From Bacteroidales bacterium (GTDB taxonomy: Bacteria > Bacteroidota > Bacteroidia > Bacteroidales > UBA932), in contig JAFYIK010000109.1 of NCBI GenBank assembly GCA_017538685.1, forward strand, positions 1 through 5,223: a stretch of 5,223 nucleotides of DNA. Direction: 5' to 3'. Positions within the stretch are counted from its first letter, which is position 1; every line of letters starts with the position of its first letter. Shown piece by piece: positions 1-5,222 of this stretch. The notes beneath the pieces were generated by a model. The model saw only the letters and a list, made by a program, of their open reading frames with translations. It searched no databases and had not been told where the DNA came from. Made by a program: the position numbers and the translations under genes.

Positions 1-1653
1 AAGCTTGAGCGATGCCTTGCGGGAAGCTAGCGAAGAGTCGCGCTGCAGGACTTCACGGCGGACCATAGAGCCGCCCTTGTCATACATATCCACAAGTCGG
101 GTGTACGGCGGGAGGCCGAAGGACTTGCGCTCGGCGAGGAGTTCGCCCAGTGCGGCGCTGATGCCCTTCCGGTCGGCGGGTCCCGTCCCTTCCGAAGCAA
201 GCGCGCGATAGACCGGATGGGAGGCCGCGCCGCACTGGACAATCAGCCGATCCGTATGAGTACGTATGGAGCAGAGCAGCTGCAGCGCCTTTTCGTCCGC
301 CCTGAAATCAGACCTGTCGAAAAGTGAGTCGGCCTGCAAAACCAGCGTCAGGGCGCTGTGTGAGGCAGATTTCCGGGCGGCGACCGCCGTCAGCAGCTGC
401 GGATCGCGGTCGGGCAGCAGCGAGCGCAGCTCGGCCACCGCATCGTCTTCCGTCTGGTAGCAGCGCACGACCGTGACCAGCGCATCGGCAGGCAGCGCGC
501 GTATCTCCTCCAGCGCCCTGCGGGAGTAGTTCCCCACCATCCCGCGTTTGTGCTTCTCGGCCGGGATATCGATTATCTCCACGGCGGGCAGCGTCTCGCT
601 CACCGGCATCAGCTCGTATTTGCCGCTGAGGCAATTGCTCAGGCTCTCGAGCGACGGACAGGCCGAACCCAGAATCAGCCGGGCACCGTGCAGCCGCGCG
701 AGCATCGCGGCCACATCGCGGCCGTTGTACAGCGGCGCGGGCTCGTTCTGCTTGAACGACACGTCCTGTTCCTCGTCCACTATCACAAGCCCCAATTCAG
801 TCCACGGCAGGAAAATCGCCGAACGAACACCTATCACGGCCACCGGGCTTGAAGCATCGCGCACGGCCTGCAGGACTTCCCTCTTCTGCTTGTCGGTGGA
901 GGTGGCGCCATAGAAGAGCAAACGGTCGCCAAGCCCACGGGCCAGGGCGTCGCGCAGATTGAAGCCGAAATCCGTCTCCGGCTCGAGAATCAGCACACTT
1001 CTTCCGGCATCCAGCGCCCTTCGGATCTCATCCAGATAGTACGGTACACGGTCCGTCCCGCGCAGCAGGACCGGTTTCTCCCTAAAATCTATCATATTCT
1101 GGAAGGCTTTATGAGTAGATTCCGAGCCCAGGGCCTCCATCTCTGTACGGGCAAGATTCAATTGCTCGAGAAGGCGTGACAATTCTTCTTCAAGCCTCGC
1201 CGTCACGGCGTCATTGTGCTTTTTCTGCAAGGCCTTCTCCCTCAATTCTACACTCTTCTCCAGCTTCGATATCTTCGCTTCAAGTGCCGAGCGCTTCTTC
1301 TGCCGAATCTGCGCAGAATGCTCGTCCATCTTCAGCGCCTGCAACTCGCCGCGCACTTTCGCAATAGGATAAGCCACCTTGTACACCTCGCCGAGCGTGC
1401 ACATATAATAAGAGGAGACGAACTCCCAAAGCTGAAGCTCCTTCTCAGAGATGTCCGCCAGGCCGGTATCGGCCGAATCTATCGAATAGACGGTAGCCAC
1501 ATCCGGCTGCCCGCCGACGCTCACAACCACACCCACATACTGCTTCCGCACAAAATGCACGGTCACCCTCTGCCCCACGTGAACCTCCTCCGTGGTCGAA
1601 TACCACGGATTCCAATCCAGCCTCAGAGGCAGACACACCTGGATGTAAGTCAT
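1..1653 (-). CDS. priA: PriA-family replication restart protein, ATPase-degenerate, 3' end cut by window edge
   Basis: This is a primosomal protein N' homologue; PriA recognises stalled forks in the cytoplasm and helps reload the replicative helicase. The frame is open for 551 codons from the ATG at 1653 and runs off base 1. Residues 1-97 match the PriA 3'-DNA-binding domain (TYIQVCLPL, VGQRVTVHF, YYMCTLGEV). Residues 110-176 are a charged, heptad-like helix where a winged helix is expected. Helicase lobe 1 is recognisable at 195-350: GRSVLILEPE (217-226), VRSAIFLP (276-283), DEEQD (293-297, normally DEEHD) and GSACPSLES (329-337). The P-loop is gone: GVTGSGKTE is replaced by RGTDR (198-202). 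There is no CxxC pair, so the zinc module is missing, and motifs IV-VI are absent. Later PriA landmarks survive: ADSLFDRSDFRADEKALQLL (441-460), ERKSFGLPPYTRL (508-520). Family membership is very likely; loss of ATPase activity is inferred. The start lies 4 nt after a promoter box. Confidence 0.9.
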   Translation of the reverse strand, partial: MTYIQVCLPLRLDWNPWYSTTEEVHVGQRVTVHFVRKQYVGVVVSVGGQPDVATVYSIDSADTGLADISEKELQLWEFVSSYYMCTLGEVYKVAYPIAKVRGELQALKMDEHSAQIRQKKRSALEAKISKLEKSVELREKALQKKHNDAVTARLEEELSRLLEQLNLARTEMEALGSESTHKAFQNMIDFREKPVLLRGTDRVPYYLDEIRRALDAGRSVLILEPETDFGFNLRDALARGLGDRLLFYGATSTDKQKREVLQAVRDASSPVAVIGVRSAIFLPWTELGLVIVDEEQDVSFKQNEPAPLYNGRDVAAMLARLHGARLILGSACPSLESLSNCLSGKYELMPVSETLPAVEIIDIPAEKHKRGMVGNYSRRALEEIRALPADALVTVVRCYQTEDDAVAELRSLLPDRDPQLLTAVAARKSASHSALTLVLQADSLFDRSDFRADEKALQLLCSIRTHTDRLIVQCGAASHPVYRALASEGTGPADRKGISAALGELLAERKSFGLPPYTRLVDMYDKGGSMVRREVLQRDSSLASRKASLKL

Positions 1654-1701: not shown

Positions 1702-3564
1702 ATGATACTGAGCATTCTGATCGCCCTTACGCTGGGCAATGTGATAGAAATAAAGCCGGAATCGAATCCGGAAGGAAAGATTCTGACTATGAAGGAAGCC
1801 ACGATCGACCGCAGCGTCTTCCCGCAATTCCCAAGAGTCAACCTTCAGCCAAGGGCCCCGTTCAAATACAGGGTGGATGAGGGAGAAGGCGTCTATTACA
1901 TAAATGAAAAAGACACCGTCTGGATCGCCAGGGACGAAGCCGAACTGCACTACGGCACTTCCGTCAGCCGCAATGAATTCGGTATCGACGGCGGGCTGTT
2001 TCCCTCCCCGAGCGGGGACAAACTCGCATTCTACGGCAAGGACGAATCCCTGGTCGAGACCTTCCCCCTTCTGGACATCGGCAAGTGCGCCCTCAGGCCG
2101 CTCAAATACCCTATGAACGGCACCGCCTCCGAGCGCGTGGACCTTCACGTCTACGACTGCGCGACCGCAAGGACTATCACCCTGAAAATAAACGACTTCG
2201 GGCCGGATAGATATATCACCGCCGTAAGCTGGATGGGCGAAGACACAATCCTCGCGCAGATCCTCGACCGCAGCCAGCACGACCTCAGGCTCAACCTCTA
2301 CGACGCCAACACCGGCGAGCAGATAAGGACCATACTCGAAGAGCACAACGACGCCTGGGTGGAACCCTACAGACAGCAGGTTCAGCTCTCGGACAAACTC
2401 TTCCTCTATTTCACCGACAACCGCGACGGCTTCAAAAGCATCTACCTCACGGACCTGGACGGCGGCATCAAACGCATAACCCCCGCGCCCGCGGACGCGC
2501 TCTTCATAGCCTATAAGAACGGTTACGTTTACTACAACAGCTTCGAAATCTCCCCCGCCGAGCAGCAGATTTTCCGCGTGAAACTCACCCTCGGAAAATC
2601 AGCCGCGAAATCCATAATCGGCAAGCCCGAGCGCATCACCAAGGAGCGCGGCTCTCACAACGCCTTCTTCATCGGCGACACCCTCATCGACCGCTACAGC
2701 AGCTTCACCGTCCCCGGCGTCCTGCAAAAATACGACGCCAACGGCAAACCGGCCGGCAAGCCCGTGAAGGTCGATGATCCTTTGAAAGACTACGCCGTCC
2801 CCGAAATCGAATTCGGCACAGTCCCCAGCGCCGACGGGCAATTCGAGAACCACTACCGCCTCTACAAGCCCCTCGGCTTCGACCCTGCGAAGAAATACCC
2901 TCTTATAGTCTATGTCTACGGCGGGCCACACTCGCAGATGGTGCGCGACAGCTGGCTGGGCGGTATCCGTATGTGGGAACTGCTGATGGCCCAGAAGGGC
3001 TATGTCGTCTATGTGCAGGACAACCGCGGCACCTCGGGCCACGGCGCGGCCTACGAAAAGGCGATCAACCGCCTGTGCGGCCAGGCCGAAATGGCCGACC
3101 AGATGGTGGGCATACGCGCGCTGCTCGAAAAGCCCTGGATCGACAGCGAACGCGTGGGAGTGCACGGCTGGAGCTACGGCGGCTTTATGACCATCTCGAT
3201 GGCCCTCACCTATCCAGACGTCTTCAAGGTGGCGGTCGCGGGCGGCCCGGTGATCGACTGGAGCTGGTACGAAGTAATGTACGGCGAGCGATATATGGAC
3301 ACGGAAGCGACCAATCCAGACGGCTTCGCCCTCACCCGCCTGCAGGACAAGGCGGACCAGCTCGAGGCAAAACTCCTCATCTGCCAGGGCGCACAGGACG
3401 TAACGGTCGTCTGGCAGCACTCCCTCAGCTTCGTGCAGGCCTGCATCAATGCCGGCAAACAAATCGACTACTTCCCCTTCCCCACGGCCGACCACAATAT
3501 GGTGCGTGAGGAACGCGTCTACCTATACCGGAAAATAACCGACTATTTCGATACCAATCTATGA
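1702..3564 (+). CDS. S9 family serine peptidase, dipeptidyl-peptidase IV-like, with a short propeller
   Basis: The predicted protein has 620 residues. Family S9 enzymes have a beta-propeller that gates an alpha/beta-hydrolase and usually release dipeptides from peptide N-termini. Propeller-like sequence covers about 60-380 (for example SPSGDKLAF at 102-110). The hydrolase covers about 385-620 and has a full triad: Ser491 in GWSYGG (489-494), Asp566 in GAQD and His598 in ADHN. Tyr406 in VYVYGGP fits the oxyanion tyrosine. VSRNEFG (88-94) sits where DPP IV has VYEEEFG; only the second of the two amine-binding glutamates remains (Glu92), so DPP IV specificity is not assured. The protein is about 100 residues shorter than typical homologues, and the shortfall lies before residue 90. 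The N-terminus has a hydrophobic run (ILSILIALTLG) but no basic n-region or clear cleavage site, so export is uncertain. The ATG at 1702 is preferred because it follows the promoter box; ATGs at 1666 and 1789 are alternatives. The gene overlaps the next one by 4 bases. Confidence 0.88.
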   Translation: MILSILIALTLGNVIEIKPESNPEGKILTMKEATIDRSVFPQFPRVNLQPRAPFKYRVDEGEGVYYINEKDTVWIARDEAELHYGTSVSRNEFGIDGGLFPSPSGDKLAFYGKDESLVETFPLLDIGKCALRPLKYPMNGTASERVDLHVYDCATARTITLKINDFGPDRYITAVSWMGEDTILAQILDRSQHDLRLNLYDANTGEQIRTILEEHNDAWVEPYRQQVQLSDKLFLYFTDNRDGFKSIYLTDLDGGIKRITPAPADALFIAYKNGYVYYNSFEISPAEQQIFRVKLTLGKSAAKSIIGKPERITKERGSHNAFFIGDTLIDRYSSFTVPGVLQKYDANGKPAGKPVKVDDPLKDYAVPEIEFGTVPSADGQFENHYRLYKPLGFDPAKKYPLIVYVYGGPHSQMVRDSWLGGIRMWELLMAQKGYVVYVQDNRGTSGHGAAYEKAINRLCGQAEMADQMVGIRALLEKPWIDSERVGVHGWSYGGFMTISMALTYPDVFKVAVAGGPVIDWSWYEVMYGERYMDTEATNPDGFALTRLQDKADQLEAKLLICQGAQDVTVVWQHSLSFVQACINAGKQIDYFPFPTADHNMVREERVYLYRKITDYFDTNL

Positions 3565-4907
3565 AACAGTACATCCAGGACAATAAGGAACGCTTCTTCG
3601 AGGAGCTGTTCAGCCTTCTGAGAATCCCCTCCATCAGCGCCAAGGCTGAGAACAAAGCGGATATGAAACGCTGCGCCGAAAGGCTTGCGGAGCTCCTGCT
3701 CGAAGCGGGAGCGGACGAAGCCGCGGTCTACCCAAGCAAGGGCAACCCGGTGGTCTACGGCCAGAAGATAATCGACCCGAAGGCCAAGACCGTGCTGGTC
3801 TACGGCCACTACGACGTCCAGCCGCCCGAGCCGCTCGAGAAATGGAACACGGACCCCTTCGAACCCGTCATCCACGACAACGCCATCTGGGCGCGCGGAG
3901 CCAACGATGACAAAGGCCAGCTATTTATGCACATCAAGGCCTTTGAATATCAGGTCCGCACGGGAAAGCTCCACCACAACGTAAAGTTCATCTTCGAAGG
4001 TGAAGAAGAAATCGGAAGCCCCAGCCTCCCCGACTGGATGCGCGAACACAAGGATCTCCTGAAGGCCGATATCTGCCTCGTCTCGGACACCACGATGATC
4101 AGCGAGAAAGTCCCGAGCATCAACTGCGGAATGCGCGGCCTTAGCTACCTCGAGGTCAAGGTCACCGGCCCCAACAAAGACCTTCACAGCGGTCACTACG
4201 GCGGCGCCGTCGCCAACCCCATCACCGTCCTCTGCGAGATGATAGCGAAGCTTCACGACGAGAACCAGCGAGTCGCCGTTCCCGGCTTCTACGACAAAGT
4301 CGTCGAACTGAGCAAGGAAGACCGCGAACTCCTCTCGAAGGCCCCGTTCGACCTCGACGAATACAAGCAATTCCTCGGAATCGACGAAGTGCGCGGCGAG
4401 AAAGGCTACACCACCCTCGAGCGCACGGGCATCAGGCCCTGCCTCGATGTCTGCGGAATCTGGGGCGGCTACACCGGCGAAGGCGCAAAGACCGTCCTTC
4501 CCGGCGAAGCTCACGCGAAGATCTCTATGCGCCTGGTGCCCAACCAGTTAAGCCGCGAAATCACGCCCCTTTTCAAGCGTTATTTCGAAAGCATCGCCCC
4601 TAAAGACGTCCACGTGGAAGTGAAAGAATGCGAAGGCGGCGACGGATTCCTCATCCCAATCAGCTCGGACGCTTACAAAGCCGCCGCCCGCGCCATCGGA
4701 GAAGTCTACGGAATCGAGCCCGTCCCCAGCCGCGGCGGCGGCTCTATCGCCGTCCTCGCCGAAATGCAGCAGATCCTCGGAATCGACCCGCTCCTTATGG
4801 GCTTCGGACTCGAACGCGACACAATCCACTCCCCCAATGAAAGTTACCTTCTCAAACAACTATTTGGAGGAATGGAATCTATCGCCCTGTTCTACCAATA
4901 CTATTAA
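3561..4907 (+). CDS. M20 family metallodipeptidase (cytosolic nonspecific dipeptidase/carnosinase-like)
   Basis: The predicted protein is a complete 448-residue two-zinc peptidase that splits dipeptides and, in some relatives, very short peptides. All the family landmarks are visible: YGHYDVQP (81-88) gives zinc ligand His83 and catalytic Asp85. ARGANDDKG (111-119) gives bridging Asp116. FEGEEEIGS (145-153) gives catalytic Glu149 and zinc ligand Glu150. VSDTT gives Asp176, and IHSPNES (422-428) gives His423. The lid/dimerisation domain carries DLHSGHYGG (208-215 and following) with His209, which reaches the partner active site in this family, and SMRLVPNQ with Arg324. RGGGSIAV (391-398) is the usual substrate-carboxylate loop. 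There is no signal peptide, so the enzyme should be cytosolic. Its ATG sits in the ATGA overlap with the S9 gene stop and has no Shine-Dalgarno sequence, which points to translational coupling. Residue roles are assigned by family analogy. Confidence 0.95.
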   Translation: MKQYIQDNKERFFEELFSLLRIPSISAKAENKADMKRCAERLAELLLEAGADEAAVYPSKGNPVVYGQKIIDPKAKTVLVYGHYDVQPPEPLEKWNTDPFEPVIHDNAIWARGANDDKGQLFMHIKAFEYQVRTGKLHHNVKFIFEGEEEIGSPSLPDWMREHKDLLKADICLVSDTTMISEKVPSINCGMRGLSYLEVKVTGPNKDLHSGHYGGAVANPITVLCEMIAKLHDENQRVAVPGFYDKVVELSKEDRELLSKAPFDLDEYKQFLGIDEVRGEKGYTTLERTGIRPCLDVCGIWGGYTGEGAKTVLPGEAHAKISMRLVPNQLSREITPLFKRYFESIAPKDVHVEVKECEGGDGFLIPISSDAYKAAARAIGEVYGIEPVPSRGGGSIAVLAEMQQILGIDPLLMGFGLERDTIHSPNESYLLKQLFGGMESIALFYQYY

Positions 4908-5048: not shown

Positions 5049-5222
5049 TTACATGTTCTGAGTTCGGTATTGCACCGGACTCAGTCCTTTTAACCGTAGT
5101 TTGATTCGTTTATTGTTGTAGTAGTCGACATATTCCCGGAGAGCTGCTTTGAACTGCTCCATGCTGTCCCACTTGTACAAATATAGCAACTCTGATTTCA
5201 TTATCCCAAAGAAGTTTTCCAT
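5049..5222 (-). CDS. IS3-family OrfB (DDE) transposase, C-terminal 57 residues, 5' part cut by window edge
   Basis: This is the last part of the integrase-like transposase that cuts and joins IS ends. The visible reading begins [11 protein letters not shown], the end of the DDE catalytic core; the Glu in MENFF is the third acidic catalytic residue in this family. The rest, including [10 protein letters not shown] and [12 protein letters not shown], is the standard OrfB C-terminal signature. The stop codon is TAA (5051-5049). The first Met here is internal, not a start; the gene continues past 5223. OrfA and the frameshift site normal for IS3 elements are outside the window. The C-terminus is intact, so this end shows no decay. 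Confidence 0.93.

Follow-up and report, generated by a model that had tools for sequence, protein, structure and literature searches.

Actinobacterial PriA has lost its helicase motifs. It has been called 'smaller and very divergent' (PMC1193525), and the account of Deinococcus radiodurans PriA in PMC4504706 describes a protein without ATPase or unwinding activity that binds single-stranded DNA, forks and DnaB, in an organism for which that account gives no clear priB or dnaT homologues. The same source argues that the PriA motor should matter in nature, although Escherichia coli lives without it. As described in PMC10175261, the 3' DNA-binding domain (3'BD) and C-terminal domain (CTD) of E. 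coli PriA bind the leading strand, a loop of helicase lobe 1 is wedged into the junction, the cysteine-rich region (CRR) pivots to allow a pore for single-stranded DNA and the docking of PriB, and PriA-PriB restart in vivo does not need the PriA ATPase. In free E. coli PriA, the CRR covers the DnaT site (PMC13377028). Here, we consider a stretch of 5,223 nucleotides (the window, taken at its full length) at the start of contig JAFYIK010000109.1 from a Bacteroidales bacterium (assembly GCA_017538685.1). It carries a priA homologue that is likely to be the cell's only PriA, turned pseudohelicase and presumably serving as a motorless fork-binding adaptor.

The gene begins with an ATG at window position 1653 on the minus strand and continues for 551 codons, with no stop up to the window edge. 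The original prediction, made from the letters of the window, had recognised the gene correctly but placed it at 330..1066; its actual span is 1-1653, and it leaves through the window start. Its parts are as follows.

1..1653, minus strand: priA homologue without motor, 551 codons visible, 3' end beyond the window edge (open reading frame, Pfam PF17764, TIGR00595 under its cut-off, phmmer to PriA structures)
1366..1653, minus strand: 3'BD, residues 1-96 (PF17764 at residues 6-96; pLDDT of the predicted structure mostly 92-97)
1126..1365, minus strand: predicted helical hairpin replacing the winged helix, residues 97-176 (model helices at 97-143 and 148-176; length varies widely in relatives)
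604..1083, minus strand: helicase lobe 1 fold, residues 191-350 (boundary set by us from alignment and model)
1048..1062, minus strand: RGTDR, a Walker A loop remnant (intact PriA of the genus mostly reads GVTGSGKTE here)
763..783, minus strand: IVDEEQD, Walker B-like, letters mostly kept
715..762, minus strand: VSFKQNEPAPLYNGRD, a conserved loop following motif II and, judging by its position, the probable counterpart of the E. coli lobe-1 fork-junction loop
169..603, minus strand: remnant of lobe 2, residues 351-495, zinc module and motifs IV-VI gone (boundary set by us)
247..306, minus strand: FRADEKALQLL, then CSIRTHTDR at the expected place of motif VI (from the alignment)
1..168, minus strand: start of the CTD, with ERKSFGLPPYTRL (94-132); ER-PP core in 70 of 71 degraded copies, including that of the window

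Judged by its matches, the homology of this protein to PriA is not due to chance. First, the Pfam model PriA_3primeBD (PF17764) recognises the N-terminal 3' DNA-binding domain (E 1.2e-13; 51.2 bits, cut-off 22.7). Second, phmmer matched solved PriA structures (E 9e-20). Third, the NCBIfam priA model TIGR00595 matched with E 6.7e-43, but at 147 bits against a cut-off of 230.35, and by that rule the protein is not a canonical PriA. The predicted structure has the PriA fold with its C-terminal domain, which, with the 3'BD, places the protein in the PriA family by descent: window residues 2-551 superpose on chain residues 2-710 of E. coli PriA (8fak), with 455 residues aligned, and the overall two-lobe shape is conserved in the model. 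Mfd, RecG, UvrB and other helicases stand lower in the structure list by Z, which we read as a shared helicase fold. Loci L001-L005 of relatives encode proteins 63-76% identical to it, and the closest database proteins among the matches listed, P0001 and P0002 (92 and 91% identical, 564 residues), extend 13 residues past the window edge and end in FDVDPL. A source name stands on 5 of the best 120 of 1210 database relatives, each 'hypothetical protein', the label under which such proteins pass in databases.

What has been lost is the motor together with the zinc module. The motifs quoted in the original prediction stand at the residues it gave (YYMCTLGEV 82-90, RGTDR 198-202, IVDEEQD 291-297, FRADEKALQLL 450-460, CSIRTHTDR 461-469 and ERKSFGLPPYTRL 508-520). 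The Walker A pattern of active PriA helicases, GxxxxGK[ST], is absent where RGTDR now lies, as are motifs V and VI (GTQ..KG.DF and Q..GRxGR); with Walker A broken and the Walker B letters mostly kept, the protein has the broken Walker motifs of a Deinococcus-type pseudohelicase. None of the eight zinc cysteines of the CRR is aligned, and its seven cysteines include no CxxC pair, whose absence had been noted. The stretch from DEEQD to DFRADE, estimated earlier to be roughly 100 residues shorter than in E. coli, measures 156 residues; its length is 248-252 in the intact relatives L160, L095, L022, L091, L158 and L159, a difference of 92-96. The change from DEEHD to DEEQD, also listed by the original prediction, is present but is a weak sign of loss: the genome draws described below supplied 37 intact copies, with DEEHD as motif II in 35 and DEEND in 2, yet the intact L022, L029, L032, L035 and L036, which were located by the pattern VIVDEEQD, carry DEEQD. 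The idea of DEEQD as a lineage-specific loss is weakened by these intact copies, and its uniformity across L001-L033 was at least partly selected by the same search pattern. The hairpin that the model places at the position of the E. coli winged helix had not been predicted. In relatives, it ranges from nearly absent (L005, L013 and L014) to long, and because coil-like sequence also occurs there in the intact L022 and L029, it may predate the loss of the motor.

What remains is under selection. Ninety-three columns are conserved across both intact and degraded members of the genus, and K301, Q302, P307 and R312 of the loop after motif II are retained in 96-100% of 25 degraded copies aligned from the genus. 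The dN/dS ratio was 0.08-0.29 (median 0.16) in 24 pairs of degraded genes and 0.06-0.15 (median 0.11) in intact pairs (9 computable of 10), so that these pairs indicate a genuine, though somewhat relaxed, constraint on degraded priA. Among 71 degraded copies, 67 extend to the C-terminal D-V-D or something close to it. Of the four exceptions, the window's copy is cut, L021 and L156 contain masked letters or are cut, and L008 has an altered end. Neither broken frames nor a dN/dS near 1 was found, and the best 120 of 1210 database relatives include none with a P-loop and none with three or more CxxC pairs. We therefore rejected an assembly error or a fresh pseudogene, in agreement with the original prediction, which had argued for a working non-helicase protein and had named a corrected assembly with a P-loop as one of the outcomes that would refute it. 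By sequence comparison, then, the ATP-binding loop, the lobe-2 motifs and the CRR are gone, and the 3'BD, the post-motif-II loop and the C-terminal core are conserved under purifying selection.

Is this the only PriA in the cell? Among the genomes of 35 relatives screened, 29 had a zinc-less PriA; 28 of these loci also lacked the P-loop (L017 keeps it), and 28 of the 29 genomes had no second PriA. Sixty-five genomes were also searched for the PriA zinc ribbon. It was found nowhere in the 40 with a zinc-less PriA, 38 of which (all but G017 and G047) have no P-loop either, and it was found in all 24 with an intact PriA (23 above the curated cut-off). As a separate observation, the draft genome G151 had two PriA matches over the cut-off and is possibly a mixed bin.

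The condition is common in the genus to which L001's organism belongs. Of 81 genomes drawn from this genus, 39 exceeded the PriA cut-off, 30 fell short of it but had a PriA-range match, and 12 had none listed; the 29 below-cut-off genomes that were aligned all lacked the P-loop and zinc module, the thirtieth, G227 (contig end), standing outside the alignment. G020, which exceeds the cut-off only by summed pieces, lacks both as well. The 12 without a PriA-range match among the matches listed (G188, G196, G200, G201, G204, G210, G214, G224, G236, G237, G241 and G253) may reflect gaps in the drafts, a priA degraded beyond what the model can recognise, or the complete loss of PriA. In the surrounding family (that of the Candidatus Cryptobacteroides avistercoris record; the two draws have genomes in common), 123 of 149 genomes were over the cut-off, at least four of them without the zinc module (G047, G052, G071 and G103); 16 were below it with a PriA-range match, which in G156 lies at a contig end, and for 10 none was listed. 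Of 198 genomes drawn from the order to which the Tannerella record belongs, 191 exceeded the cut-off, 1 fell below it and 6 had no match at 1e-15, so that the loss of the motor and zinc module is concentrated in the family just described. Intact PriA of the genus (L081-L114) mostly has the P-loop GVTGSGKTE, with DEEHD or DEEND and eight cysteines; its motif VI is mostly GRCGRR or GRSGRR, not GRAGRR. The zinc module is gone and the P-loop kept in L017 and L140, and L115 has APAGSGKTE; because these loci resemble intermediate states, their sequences suggest that the zinc module can go first. A separate degraded group, L149-L157, has EREEH or DREEH as motif II. A gene that we take to be ispH-like adjoins eight of these nine copies (not L154), L140-L143 and the intact L159 and L160.

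How often has the motor been lost? A tree of RpoB from 73 genomes (41 lacking both features, 2 zinc-less with a P-loop, 30 intact) required nine changes; for the intact label, well-supported branches make seven of them unavoidable. Counting losses only, it needed nine (eight with branches below 95 collapsed), eight (seven) without G206, and six when the two P-loop keepers were also left out; G206 was omitted from two of these three sets, its RpoB being partial and lying apart from its PriA's kin. A grouping of 27 degraded genus genomes as one was rejected (p 6e-33). In a tree of DnaB from 20 selected genomes, the degraded G229, G028 and G018 joined the intact G216, G239 and G185 with support 100/100, and one degraded clade of 11 was rejected (p 4e-8). 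Both trees agree on the placement of G229, G028 and G018, whose priA adjoins the same downstream gene as many intact copies. That gene is presumably parA-like, as read from a visible motif. For the species themselves, a single origin is rejected by RpoB and DnaB; within the genus, the PriA tree allows it. Several losses within one gut Bacteroidales family thus seem to be indicated by these sequences, the number depending on the tree. The independent loss in Bacteroidota proposed by the original prediction holds and may even understate the case.

The PriA tree speaks for a different history, in which the motor was lost once in the genus and the gene then moved horizontally, degraded priA replacing intact copies or intact copies being regained. 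It contained 113 rows (L156, L033 and L021 dropped from a set of 116, outside which lie L034, L037-L039, L042 and L047) and grouped 53 degraded sequences with SH-aLRT 98; a mixture model on 64 chosen rows of the 116 grouped all 25 zinc-less rows with support 89, and an approximately unbiased (AU) test rejected a tree in which L018, L028 and L115 join five intact copies from sisters of their species (p 0.0007). However, even on this tree the fully degraded label takes three changes, and the program warned of long branches, which, with shared loss of constraint, can draw degraded sequences together and are a likely cause of the grouping. Position also argues against transfer: L018, L028, L115, L116 and L117 adjoin the same presumed parA-like gene as many intact copies, and the window-type L001 and L003-L005 have a different one. 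Set against the agreement of RpoB and DnaB, a single loss followed by transfer is unlikely.

Because the rest of the protein is conserved while relatives appear to have lost the motor and zinc parts several times, we suggest that the fork grip is the part of PriA that matters. Sequence and model point to a protein that would have lost its ATPase and retained fork binding. An abandoned fork would be bound with the 3'BD and C-terminus holding the leading strand and the lobe-1 loop holding the junction; DnaB would be recruited, with DciA as probable loader, and the lagging strand would not be unwound. DnaB was found in 63 and DciA in 62 of 64 genomes of the family, and DciA has been proposed to act with PriA at forks in Caulobacter (PMC9825169). 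The original prediction had recommended a search for PriB-, PriC- or DnaT-like partners; PriC and DnaT were found in none of 29 genomes (21 zinc-less, 8 intact), and PriB was not searched for. Since neither was detected there, loss of the CRR could have removed a gate that lacked its partner. Unwinding, where needed, could fall to another helicase such as RecG, which scored above its cut-off in 27 of the 29 (partial in G018; G005 has its only match in an Mfd-sized frame). A bolder proposal, which we hold only tentatively and think somewhat less probable than its negation, is that the motor and zinc gate are disposable as a unit, lost together many times in place in one gut Bacteroidales family to leave a fork clamp that stays constitutively open and passes forks directly to DciA-DnaB. 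If this is true, sister lineages such as G216 versus G028 and G018, close on the DnaB and RpoB trees, are natural experiments on the purpose of the PriA helicase.

Several points weigh against a sole, motorless, fork-binding PriA. The genomes searched for second copies are all drafts and mostly metagenome bins. The search for a second canonical PriA, named with the original prediction as its test, favoured that prediction in 28 of 29 genomes but not in G006, which adds a canonical fragment, with the zinc ribbon, on another contig. This fragment (L234, contig C77) shares 48-50% identity with each of the ten sequences of the analysed set that match it best, and has a GC content of 0.556, against 0.503 for L006; because of these differences it is perhaps a stray contig, the alternative being a true second copy. 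The constraint is somewhat relaxed, and the dN/dS of pairs with the window (0.12-0.16) is only rough, dS being near saturation at 1.4-1.9. The winged helix and CRR, which in E. coli contact the parental and lagging strands, are missing, and fork specificity may be reduced for that reason. Finally, DciA is a probable partner by presence only.

The missing parts would also suit a protein that kept its fold and changed its job, for example to a branched-DNA repair factor, with replication restarting without PriA: a predicted hairpin occupies the winged-helix site and the CRR is lost. Against this neofunctionalisation, which we regard as improbable, stand the 93 columns shared by intact and degraded genus members, the absence of another PriA from 28 of 29 genomes and the retention of DnaB and DciA. 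A pseudogene on its way to loss, with which the slightly raised dN/dS and the 12 genomes with no PriA-range match listed would agree, is very improbable, the open frames, the preserved D-V-D ends and a dN/dS well below 1 already contradicting decay. Equally little credence can be given to ATP binding or hydrolysis through a non-standard loop, despite DEEQD in the window, APAGSGKTE in L115 and the P-loops of L017 and L140, because the Walker A Gly, Lys and Thr and the lobe-2 Gly/Arg that intact copies conserve have given way to other residues in 72-100% of 25 degraded copies from the genus, and DEE survives in only 12 of the 42 degraded copies that the genome draws supplied.

The rest of the window carries the following genes; Rfam and tRNA scans of the window were empty.

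1702..3564, plus strand: S9/DPP-IV-type peptidase, divergent from priA (PF00326, PF00930; same place in L001-L005 and L014)
3561..4907, plus strand: M20 dipeptidase, after the S9 peptidase (PF01546, PF07687; NF006053 above cut-off; same place in L001-L005 and L014)
5055-5222, minus strand: C-terminal 56 residues of a transposase, integrase core, leaving through the window end (rve_2, 84 bits; IS3-like by our reading)

How does this locus compare with known systems? In the literature searched, which was covered in part, we found no report of a motorless PriA in Bacteroidota. A genus with both normal and motorless PriA allows genome, repair genes and niche to be compared upon loss of the motor, and the degraded copies reveal which PriA positions are still selected without the ATPase or CRR. 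The window protein shares with the intact PriA of its genus (L081-L114) the 3'BD, post-motif-II loop and CTD core, and many of those intact copies share their downstream gene with part of the degraded ones. Compared with E. coli PriA (8fak), it lacks the winged helix, the CRR and the ATP site. Like actinobacterial PriA, it is divergent and shortened; however, it scores best on PRK05580 (182.6 bits) and at most 62.8 bits on PRK14873, the NCBIfam model of the actinobacterial form. The zinc-ribbon model PF18319 found no match in the Corynebacterium control, nor in Caulobacter. The likeness to D. radiodurans PriA lies in the Walker motifs, A and B being poor there, as PMC4504706 describes, and A being broken here. 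In that protein, the same source describes substitutions (Walker A Lys to Arg), whereas here the zinc module, Walker A and lobe-2 motifs are deleted together and intact sisters occur in the same genus; moreover, the PriA zinc ribbon is present in the related control genomes of Deinobacterium chartae and Thermus composti and absent from the window and 40 relatives' genomes. PriA pseudohelicases were already known; the difference here is that the motor motifs and zinc module have been lost together, apparently repeatedly, in a single family that also has intact sisters.
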